A stretch of 64,000 nt of DNA. Origin: Haloarcula rubra. Its GTDB lineage: Archaea; Halobacteriota; Halobacteria; Halobacteriales; Haloarculaceae. This document shows positions 6,876 through 9,600 of this stretch, one piece after another (position 1 is the first letter of the stretch; each line of letters begins with the position of its first letter). The notes under the pieces were generated by a model. It did not search any database. It worked only from the letters and a program-made list of their open reading frames with translations, and had not been told where the DNA came from. A program made the translations under genes and the position numbers. The stretch is from NCBI RefSeq assembly GCF_019599465.1, contig NZ_RKLR01000001.1:682001-746000 (forward strand), written 5' to 3'.

Positions 6876-7221
6876 ACCGGTGTATCTGCGCGGTGGGACT
6901 AAAAGAGCGCGGGCTTCGGTACGGTGGTCCTACCGGTCGCTTCCGAGGGTCTGCGTCCGGCCCCACGGCTCACCATCCGTCACGCGCTCGTTCACAACAG
7001 AACCCCAACTCGCGGGTCGCTTTGCTCCCCGCTCACTTTCGAGGGCCGCTCACTTCGTTCGCGCGTTCGTTCACAACAGAACCCCCAACTCGCGGGTCGC
7101 TTTGTTCCCCGCTCACTTCGTTCGCGCGTTCGTTCACAACAGAACCCCAACTCGCGGGTCGCTTTGCTCCCCGCTCACTTTCGAGGGCCGCTCACTTCGT
7201 TCGCGCCCCTCGCTATCCTCG
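6876..7221. other. 346-bp gap holding a short tandem repeat, no gene seen
   Basis: The gap lies between the start of the DUF1616 gene and the stop of the TFB gene. Its only clear structure is the repeat block at 6989-7206. The reading frames across it are shadows with basic, low-complexity translations. Confidence 0.6.
6989..7206. repeat. Three-copy imperfect direct repeat
   Basis: Copies begin at 6989, 7068 and 7131 with CGTTCACAACAGAACCC and run on through CTCGCGGGTCGCTTTG. The first and third copies also carry a roughly 17-bp segment (TCGAGGGCCGCTCAC) that is missing from the second, which explains the unequal spacing of 79 and 63 bp. Within copies the match is nearly perfect. The block sits just beyond the TFB stop codon, in its 3' untranslated region. 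There are no unique spacers, so this is not a CRISPR array; recent slippage or unequal crossover is the simplest cause. Confidence 0.85.
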
Positions 7222-8235
7222 CTACGCGCTCGCGTTCGACCCGCTCGCGGCACTCGCGTCGACGGGGTCGCGGTCGGCCTCGGCTTCGAGGAGTTCCCGG
7301 TAGCGGTCGCGGATAGTGACGGTGCTGACGTCGGTAGCGTCGCTGACCGTCTCCTGGGTGAGTTCCTCGTTGACCAGCAGGCCGGCCGCGTAGATGGCCG
7401 CCGCGGCCAGTCCGACCGGGCTCTTGCCGCTGTGGACGTTCTCGGCCTTCCCCGTCTCCAGCAGGTCGTGGGCTCGCATCGCCAGTTCGTCGCTGGCGTC
7501 CAGTTCGGAGACGAACTTCGAGAGGTAGTCCGCCGGGTCCGGCGGGCCGATCTCCAGCGAGAGTTCGCGGTTGATGTAGCGGTAGGCGCGGGTGAACTCC
7601 TGTTCGTCGACGCGGCTGACGACCACCATGTCGTCGATGGTCTGCGGGAGGTTCGCCTGCCGGACGGCGGCGTACAGCGACGCCGTGGCGATGCCCTCGA
7701 TGGAACGCCCCGGGAGGAGGCCCTCGTCCAGCGCACGGCGGTAGACGACGCCGGCCGTCTCGCGGGCGCTCTTGGGGACGCCCAGTGCGCTCCCCATCCG
7801 GTCGATTTCGCCCAGCGCCTGCTTGAGGTTGCGCTCGCTGTGGTCGCGGGTGCGGAACCGCTCGTTCCACGTCCGCAGGCGCTGCATCTTCTCGCGCTGG
7901 CGCGAGGACAGGGAGTTGCCGTTGGCGTCCTTGTTCTGCCACCCGATGTTCGTCGAGAGGCCCTCGTCGTGCATCAGTTTCGTCGTCGGCGCGCCGACGC
8001 GGGACTTCTTGTCGCGCTCGGCGGAGTCGAACGCGCGCCACTCGGGGCCGCGGTCGATGGCGTTCTCGTCGACGACCAGCCCACAGTCTGCACAGACCGT
8101 CTCGCCGCGAGACGCGTCGTGGGTGAGGTGGCCGCCACAGTCCGGACAGACCTGCCCCTCACTCGCCTCCGCCGCTGTCTCCTCGTCGACGGTGCTACCC
8201 CGTTCTTTGGCGTCGTGTGTGCTGAGTGTGGTCAT
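7222..8235 (-). CDS. tfb: Transcription initiation factor IIB (TFB)
   Basis: A 337-residue general transcription factor that bridges TBP-bound promoters and RNA polymerase. The N-terminal zinc ribbon uses Cys30, Cys33, Cys48 and Cys51 (CPDCGG and CADCGL). The B-reader/linker follows (GPEWRAF through KSRVGAP), then two cyclin-like repeats, ending with the recognition helix region VSDATDVSTVTIRDRY. Length and layout match other haloarchaeal TFBs. These organisms often carry several TFBs with specialised promoter sets, so this one may not be the housekeeping copy. It follows the HTH-10 gene on the same strand after 110 bp, and its promoter region contains the same palindrome as that gene's promoter, which suggests regulation by the neighbour. 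Confidence 0.96.
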   Translation of the reverse strand: MTTLSTHDAKERGSTVDEETAAEASEGQVCPDCGGHLTHDASRGETVCADCGLVVDENAIDRGPEWRAFDSAERDKKSRVGAPTTKLMHDEGLSTNIGWQNKDANGNSLSSRQREKMQRLRTWNERFRTRDHSERNLKQALGEIDRMGSALGVPKSARETAGVVYRRALDEGLLPGRSIEGIATASLYAAVRQANLPQTIDDMVVVSRVDEQEFTRAYRYINRELSLEIGPPDPADYLSKFVSELDASDELAMRAHDLLETGKAENVHSGKSPVGLAAAAIYAAGLLVNEELTQETVSDATDVSTVTIRDRYRELLEAEADRDPVDASAASGSNASA

Positions 8236-8290
8236 GATAGATGACGAGCGAGCGGTATCGCCACCACCCGCGTGCGTACATCAGTGAAGT

Positions 8291-8311
8291 AGTGCTACCA
8301 GTATCAGCACT
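8291..8311. repeat. Inverted repeat in the TFB promoter region
   Basis: AGTGCT and AGCACT form a 6-bp inverted repeat with a 9-bp spacer, next to the TTCGGC palindrome. The spacer contains a weak TATA-like GATACTGG (minus strand, 8298-8305). It could be a second operator half or a chance repeat. Confidence 0.4.
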
Positions 8312-8312
8312 A

Positions 8313-8330
8313 GTTCGGCGTATGCCGAAC
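8313..8330. promoter_or_regulatory. Candidate operator upstream of tfb
   Basis: GTTCGGCGTATGCCGAAC is a near-perfect palindrome with half-sites GTTCGGC and GCCGAAC around a 4-bp centre. It lies 78 bp before the TFB start codon and 16 bp past the stop of the upstream regulator gene. The same 16-bp core with one base changed occurs in the promoter of that regulator (9174-9189). Two copies in adjacent promoters argue for a real protein-binding site. Confidence 0.65.
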
Positions 8331-8345
8331 GAGAGTGGGGAGCGT

Positions 8346-9131
8346 TCACACACCCGAGCGGCCGACGCGCAGACGGGTCCCCTCCGCGACGGACTCGTCG
8401 GCCTCGACGGGCCCCATCGACCGGGTGACGAACGAGCGGACAATCCACGCCTCGGCCCGCTGCAGCCGGTACTGTAGCGTCGACCGCGAGACGTCGAGCG
8501 TCTCCGCGAGGTCGGTCAGCGAGACGTCCCGCGGCGTGCGGTAGTAGCCGTGTTCGACGGCGGCTTCGACGGCGGCCTGCTGTTCGGGGGGGAGTTCCGC
8601 CAGCGTCACGGACTCGTCGGTCCAGTAGGACGGCTCGCCGAGCTGGCGGAACTCGACGGTCAGGCCGGGCCGGAGTTCGGACTCCAGCGCCCCGAACAGG
8701 TCGTCGACGCCCTCGTCGCTACACAGGAGCAGCCGCCACTCACAGCGGCTCCCCCGGCGTTCCGTCTCACAGAGAACGCCGTGGCCGACGTGTTCGATGG
8801 CCAGTCGCGGGATGGAGTGACAGTCACCGGCCTCGGAGCGATAGCTGTAGACGGTGCGGCGACCCTGTTCGGAGGCGATGACCTCGTAGTGCCACTCCGT
8901 ATCGCAGTCCCGGGTCCCGATACACTCCGTACACTGGACGGGGCCGTCGAACACATCGTCGAGTCTGTCGAGCGCCGCCTCCGTGCCGGCGACCCGTTCC
9001 AGCCGCCACATCCCGTCGTTCGTGACGTTGCAGGCGATGGTCCGGGAGTGCGTCTCCGGGTAGTCGATGAACACGTCCATCAGGGGGTCGACCCCGCGTT
9101 CGTAGTCGATGGTGAAGATGAACTCGCGCAT
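8346..9131 (-). CDS. HTH-10 (Bat-type) transcriptional regulator
   Basis: A 261-residue cytoplasmic regulator. The C-terminal 50 residues carry the HTH-10 DNA-binding domain of the bacterio-opsin activator family: VSLTDLAETLDVSRSTLQYRLQRAEAW is split around the recognition helix. The N-terminal 200 residues are the sensor region, beginning MREFIFTIDYERGVDPLMDVF; residues near the middle include CTECIGTRDCD and further Cys (CETERRGSRCEW, LLLCSD), which could bind metal or sense redox state. The open frame extends upstream to 9200, but the start at 9131 is preferred: a TATA box (9155-9162) and the operator palindrome (9174-9189) lie inside the extension. The palindrome suggests autoregulation and control of the downstream tfb. 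Confidence 0.85.
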   Translation of the reverse strand: MREFIFTIDYERGVDPLMDVFIDYPETHSRTIACNVTNDGMWRLERVAGTEAALDRLDDVFDGPVQCTECIGTRDCDTEWHYEVIASEQGRRTVYSYRSEAGDCHSIPRLAIEHVGHGVLCETERRGSRCEWRLLLCSDEGVDDLFGALESELRPGLTVEFRQLGEPSYWTDESVTLAELPPEQQAAVEAAVEHGYYRTPRDVSLTDLAETLDVSRSTLQYRLQRAEAWIVRSFVTRSMGPVEADESVAEGTRLRVGRSGV

Positions 9132-9154
9132 TGGCGCTCCTACTCCGCGGAGCG

Positions 9155-9162
9155 GCTTATAT
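9155..9162 (-). promoter_or_regulatory. TATA box of the HTH-10 regulator
   Basis: On the minus strand this reads GATATAAG, a strong archaeal TATA element about 25-30 bp before the ATG at 9131. It implies a leaderless or nearly leaderless transcript and decides the start codon. Confidence 0.65.
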
Positions 9163-9172
9163 CCACGGCCGA

Positions 9173-9190
9173 TTTCGGCGTGTGCCGAAC
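9173..9190. promoter_or_regulatory. Candidate operator at the HTH-10 promoter
   Basis: TTTCGGCGTGTGCCGAAC has the core TTCGGC-GTGT-GCCGAA, 11 bp upstream of the regulator TATA box and 36 bp before the divergent ATG at 9226. It matches the site at 8313-8330 except for one central base. A regulator bound here could act on both divergent genes. Confidence 0.65.
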
Positions 9191-9225
9191 GGGCCGTCAT
9201 ACCGGTGAGACCCGTCCACTAGCGT

Positions 9226-9600
9226 ATGTCGTGCGAGTCGTCGAACCCGCCCCGACGGGAGCGCGAACCGCCAGCGAGCGACGCGTCTCGGGGTCGAGTA
9301 CCGACCCACAACTGGCGCCCGACGGTGGTTCACGGGGCCGTCCTGTGGGCGCTCCTCCTCGGTGCGGCGCTGGCCGTTCCTGCGGGCCACCCGCTGGAAC
9401 TCGGTGTCGCCGTCGCCGGCGTCTTCGTCCTCCCTGTCCTGCCCGTCGCACTGTGCTGTGACTACCGACAGGCCAGACGCGCCGGCACCTGTGGCCCCGG
9501 CGTCGCGGCCTACCTCGCTAACCTCGCTCGCGACGTTCGGACGACGCTCACCCGCGGCGACGCACTCGGGAGCGAGCGTCGGGCGTTCGACTCGTGCTGA
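9226..9600 (+). CDS. Small membrane protein divergent from the HTH-10 regulator
   Basis: A 124-residue protein of unknown function. The first 35 residues are polar and basic (PPRREREPP), then two hydrophobic helices follow at about residues 38-55 and 58-80, ending in PVALCCDYRQARRAG with adjacent cysteines. The rest is a soluble tail. It shares the promoter region and candidate operator with the divergent regulator, so it may be a target of it. No family is recognised. The converse possibility, a start at a later codon closer to the helices, remains open because the N-terminal stretch is unusually basic for this genome. Confidence 0.5.
   Translation: MSCESSNPPRREREPPASDASRGRVPTHNWRPTVVHGAVLWALLLGAALAVPAGHPLELGVAVAGVFVLPVLPVALCCDYRQARRAGTCGPGVAAYLANLARDVRTTLTRGDALGSERRAFDSC

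Follow-up and report, generated by a model that had tools for sequence, protein, structure and literature searches.

An HTH-10 regulator gene and the adjacent tfb gene share a palindromic operator in Haloarcula, suggesting dedicated control of one TFB

A gene encoding an HTH-10 regulator and the tfb gene next to it carry the same palindromic operator in Haloarcula. The operator is conserved, the regulator recurs beside a TFB, the geometry of the sites is fixed, and the operator covaries with one residue of the regulator. Binding, the sign of regulation, the signal, and the TFB regulon are inferred, and we consider it likely that the HTH-10 protein is a one-component, autoregulated regulator dedicated to the adjacent tfb, with activation as the most likely effect. 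This sensor protein probably decides when this TFB and the genes that it serves are switched on.

The stretch of DNA that was analyzed (the window, 64,000 nt) belongs to a Haloarcula genome of 4.67 Mb. The features on which the argument draws are listed below; the last two lie elsewhere in the same genome.

7222..8235, minus strand: tfb, transcription initiation factor B, 337 aa, with a Zn ribbon and two cyclin-like repeats
8248..8271, minus strand: possible hairpin in the tfb leader, from single-sequence folds, right before the start codon
8301..8306, minus strand: tfb TATA-like element TGATAC, weaker than the HTH-10 TATA; its spacing is conserved in Haloarcula, and TATA is equally spaced in other families
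8314..8329, no strand assigned: operator 2, TTCGGCGTATGCCGAA, 7 bp upstream of TGATAC and 78 nt before the tfb ATG
8349..9131, minus strand: HTH-10 regulator gene, 261 aa, with HVO_2928_N at 1-170, HTH_10 at 182-231, R216, and C34, C67, C70, C76, and C104
9156..9161, minus strand: HTH-10 TATA box TATAAG, about 28 nt before the ATG, assigned from sequence and column conservation
9174..9189, no strand assigned: operator 1, TTCGGCGTGTGCCGAA, 12 bp upstream of the HTH-10 TATA and conserved in 28 Haloarcula loci
9226..9600, plus strand: divergent small membrane-protein gene, 124 aa, without a Pfam family
C32:208899-209129, minus strand: small DUF7127 (PF23444) gene with a third strict operator copy ahead of it
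C32:209171-209186 (= L004:5172-5187), no strand assigned: third operator, upstream of the DUF7127 gene

The HTH-10 and tfb genes are arranged in tandem on the minus strand, with HTH-10 upstream and 111 nt between them, and the HTH-10 start was placed at 9131 rather than 9200 (minus strand). The tfb product is full length, matching PF08271 and two stretches of PF00382 in Pfam; its score of 368 bits against NCBIfam NF001658, a TFIIB subfamily, falls just below the cut-off of 384, and it is one among 12 TFB matches in its genome. A leader hairpin of the form GCGRG...CTCGC can be folded in most Haloarcula, with weak support, as the alignment consensus consists of three invariant pairs with negligible covariation. 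Just 3' of tfb, at positions 6986-7210 of the window, lie about three copies of direct repeats (CGTTCACAACAGAACCCCAACTCGCGGGTCGCTTTG...). The HTH-10 protein has both domains of an HVO_2928_N + HTH_10 one-component regulator in that order, namely HVO_2928_N (PF24281; residues 3-170, E 1e-68) and HTH_10 (PF04967; residues 182-231, E 3e-14). The architecture of Bat comprises PAS/GAF sensor domains. The preliminary description had called the regulator Bat-type, a label that fits its C-terminal HTH_10 domain (PF04967), which Bat also has, but not its N-terminus, which is HVO_2928_N (PF24281) and gave no PAS or GAF match in Pfam up to E 0.001; unlike that of Bat, its predicted target is a general transcription factor gene.

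The preliminary description had also placed a 16-bp palindrome upstream of each of the two genes, with a common flank and with the second copy lying upstream of a TATA box. All three statements were borne out: both copies are present at the positions given above and differ at one base in 16, both run on as GCCGAA-CG, and TATAAG lies 12 bp from operator 1. Scanning the window for the palindrome with at most three mismatches gave four matches, all at operators 1 and 2 when either strand is counted, a result that is by itself only weakly significant, since four matches were reached in 8 of 100 shuffles. The significance of the palindrome therefore rests on the whole genome, in which TTCGGC-N4-GCCGAA occurs three times, twice at the HTH-10 and tfb promoters, and the reversed control does not occur. 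From the distance of about 28 nt between its TATA and ATG, the HTH-10 mRNA is expected to be leaderless; leaderless mRNAs are the rule in Haloferax (PMC4983044).

Within the genus, the palindrome precedes HTH-10 in 28/28 loci with the gene pair, and a site scoring at least 10/12, mostly with TTYGGC...GCCRAA half-sites, precedes tfb in 27 loci, i.e., in all of those with an extractable gap. The palindrome near orthologous genes, whose absence had been named at the outset as a refutation, is thus kept at both genes across Haloarcula. The operator is indeed common to the pair, as first described, but it is not private to it: in a scan of 32 Haloarcula genomes, symmetric sites were found essentially at the HTH-10, tfb, and DUF7127 promoters. 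A site scoring at least 10/12 lies at a near-fixed distance from the DUF7127 gene in 26/26 genomes that have this gene; the start codon is in most cases exactly 57 bp away, and a TATA-like element comes about 8 bp after the site. Four near-complete Haloarcula genomes lack all three genes (HTH-10, this tfb, and DUF7127), and their best TFB match is at the level of a common paralogue. As these four genomes group together in the tree (80/78), the co-absence was counted as a single event, which it probably is, and it was set aside as a strong statistical argument. Perfect inverted repeats are able to fold into hairpins, and the palindromes could be structural or neutral repeats (a mobile short repeat, a terminator, or a transcript hairpin) that involve no regulator. 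We consider this highly improbable, as there are nearly no further strict copies per genome, the distance to TATA is fixed, the half-sites are kept while the spacer is free, and the HTH-10 palindrome lies upstream of the expected transcript start.

Outside Haloarcula, HTH-10 and TFB genes are neighbors at 30 more loci in five families, mostly in divergent orientation, and most of the divergent pairs carry two operators. An operator common to both genes and an arrangement that recurs in five families argue for the regulator-tfb link that had been proposed from the window. Within 200 bp upstream of 18 non-redundant TFB-linked HTH-10 genes, sites scoring at least 10/12 were found in 17 (1.25 expected from dinucleotide shuffles), at least 11/12 in 14 (0.09 expected), and perfect sites in 6 (0.007 expected), whereas 56 unlinked HTH-10 paralogues showed a weaker excess (at least 10/12 in 15 with 3.8 expected, at least 11/12 in 8 with 0.24 expected, and none perfect); all of these excesses are optimistic, as the operator consensus was drawn partly from the scored loci. 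In the TFB tree, the HTH-linked TFBs group together (2 changes versus 15 in shuffles), and in three genomes no HTH-10 of this kind was located within 1.5 kb of any of the other, unlinked TFB loci that were checked. Matches to a relaxed operator pattern in other genera were, besides those at HTH-10/TFB loci, mostly scattered, and control patterns were often equally frequent; no regulon beyond the pair is therefore claimed outside Haloarcula. The divergent membrane-protein gene of the window, which had been described as sharing operator 1 and may do so, had no detected homologue beside 6 of the 28 Haloarcula HTH-10 genes, where the palindrome is nevertheless kept. Relatives of its product adjoin three HTH-10/TFB pairs of other families (L271, E 1e-13; L263, E 3e-7; L258, weak), so it may be an accessory of the module. 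Two further neighborhoods were observed. In pairs L276 and L279, tfb is directly followed by a thioredoxin gene and HTH-10 by a rhodanese gene, and the closest unlinked HTH-10 relatives (L033, L250, and L252; about 58% identical) stand in divergent orientation to a gene for a universal stress protein and are separated from it by a perfect operator.

The operator itself varies with the regulator. Its inner base pair follows HTH-10 residue 216, which opens the recognition helix, with Arg accompanying C:G and Gln or other residues accompanying T:A. With ties dropped and kinship ignored, the counts for Arg or other residues against an inner C or T are 18/1/1/16 (Fisher 6e-8), although the idea arose from part of the data used to score it. 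Residue 216 is the best of all alignment columns (normalized mutual information 0.302; next column, 0.213), and about three independent residue-base changes are well supported, with none discordant in the median pairing, a number too small for significance. Such covariation is what direct reading of the site by HTH-10 would be expected to produce, and it points to the HTH-10 protein as the predicted binder. Alternatively, the palindrome could be bound by a different protein (an HTH-10 paralogue or some unrelated regulator), with HTH-10 and tfb as mere members of its regulon; genomes encode many HTH-10-type paralogues, and related operators stand ahead of some unlinked ones. We judge this improbable, given that the operator follows residue 216 of the HTH-10 encoded nearby, that the sites track the HTH-10/TFB pair across families, and that the remaining TFB loci examined have neither an HTH-10 nor a perfect site. 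With HTH-10 as the binder, its C-terminal helix-turn-helix would read the inverted repeat TTYGGY-N4-RCCRAA as a dimer.

The direction of control is suggested by the position of the operators. On the tfb side, 22 divergent pairs have a CGAA/CGAG-like stretch after the operator and then TATA at +7 to +11, and in most divergent pairs the distance from the operator to the tfb TATA box is 6-8 bp. On the HTH side, a TTA/TATTAC-type element precedes the operator in 19 divergent pairs, and the operator stops 10-13 nt short of the ATG, which, given a leaderless mRNA, would place it at or downstream of TATA. The Haloarcula sites are all upstream of TATA, by 7-9 bp at tfb and DUF7127 and by 12 bp at HTH-10. 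At tfb, and in Haloarcula also at DUF7127, HTH-10 bound directly upstream of BRE/TATA would most likely aid the recruitment of TBP/TFB and so activate a weak promoter. The autoregulated switch of the preliminary description gains support from the presence of the same operator at the regulator's own and target promoters and its conservation in relatives. This autoregulation probably differs by lineage: in most divergent pairs, with the regulator's own operator at or downstream of TATA, feedback would block the promoter, and in Haloarcula, with the operator upstream of TATA, feedback might be positive, the operator-TATA spacing of 12 at HTH-10 compared with 7 at tfb making this sign less certain.

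HTH-10 could instead repress tfb and itself until a signal arrives, with the operator beside BRE blocking the loading of TFB/TBP. We regard repression of tfb as a serious rival, albeit one with the smaller share of the probability by some distance. Autorepression is common among one-component regulators, and the own-gene operators at or downstream of TATA in the 19 divergent pairs resemble repressor sites. However, the tfb-side and DUF7127 operators stand upstream of BRE/TATA with near-constant spacing, the typical position of archaeal activators (PMC4287449), and the TATA-like element of the Haloarcula tfb is weak. In archaea, activator sites tend to lie upstream of the pre-initiation complex and repressor sites downstream of it, an established trend (PMC4287449), and based on this trend and on the operator positions relative to TATA, activation of tfb with lineage-dependent autoregulation is preferred.

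The preliminary description had noted several Cys residues in the regulator, and five of them in the sensor domain (C34, C67, C70, C76, and C104) proved to be conserved, as expected of a thiol or metal sensor, being kept in 25-30/30 linked proteins outside Haloarcula and in 28/28 within it. A model of HTH-10 shows similarity to Ta1207 in its N-terminal part (Z 11.8, 146 residues) and to DNA-bound sigma region 4 in its HTH part (Z 7.3, a value in line with common arrangements). Searching the PDB by sequence gave weak HTH matches only, and a Foldseek search with the model gave nothing under 1e-3. Thioredoxin and rhodanese genes adjoin some TFB-linked pairs, and genes for Usp, ferritin-like, AhpC/TSA, and CMD proteins adjoin some unlinked HTH-10 relatives, all of these neighbors having been picked by reading, without a background rate. 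Based on the conserved Cys residues and the redox-gene neighbors, we hypothesize that the signal is a redox or thiol state. The N-terminal domain would perceive it, plausibly at the Cys cluster, and the signal would set the amount of this TFB and hence the use of the promoters that this TFB prefers; the control of a whole promoter set put forward in the preliminary description may follow from this.

A direct sensor-to-TFB link had been put forward as a notable control mode. It is not unprecedented, as RosR of Halobacterium salinarum directly regulates tfbB via a palindromic site (PMC4287449); there, as predicted here, a sequence-specific regulator with a palindromic site controls a tfb and so part of its own indirect regulon. 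RosR, however, acts globally on many genes, among them 21 for transcription factors (PMC4287449), whereas HTH-10 comes from another family, has the tfb as its neighbor, and has very few genomic sites. Compared by mode of action and not by family, TFB-RF1 of Pyrococcus furiosus, an activator that aids TFB at weak-BRE promoters (PMC5937170), illustrates how the tfb-side operator could act, with the difference that TFB-RF1 recruits TFB to a target promoter and the target gene here is tfb. In bacterial ECF sigma factor systems with dedicated neighboring regulators, a signal likewise sets the amount of one alternative initiation factor, and the HTH part of HTH-10 resembles sigma region 4 by fold, but TFB is no sigma factor, and the regulator here is a DNA-binding protein rather than an anti-sigma factor. 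In titles, abstracts, and passages of papers that mention TFB along with HTH-10, HVO_2928, or bacterio-opsin activator, no description of the HTH-10/TFB module was found. The regulator-to-TFB link itself is known, and what appears to be new is its neighboring, recurrent, operator-tuned form.

A wider proposal, which we put forward tentatively and rate as possible rather than probable, is that HTH-10/TFB pairs form a recurrent, co-evolving haloarchaeal module in which a thiol/redox sensor commands a private TFB, much like a stress-controlled alternative sigma factor, and in which one recognition-helix residue tunes operator specificity so that several modules can coexist per cell. Salt-loving archaea have many TFB copies, several interchangeable general factors whose individual deployment is a long-standing question. 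With a conserved neighboring regulator and a readable operator, this question can be tested directly for one Haloarcula TFB lineage and, in the five families, for further ones, and the residue-base rule would provide a first specificity handle on the large and hardly characterized HTH-10 family.
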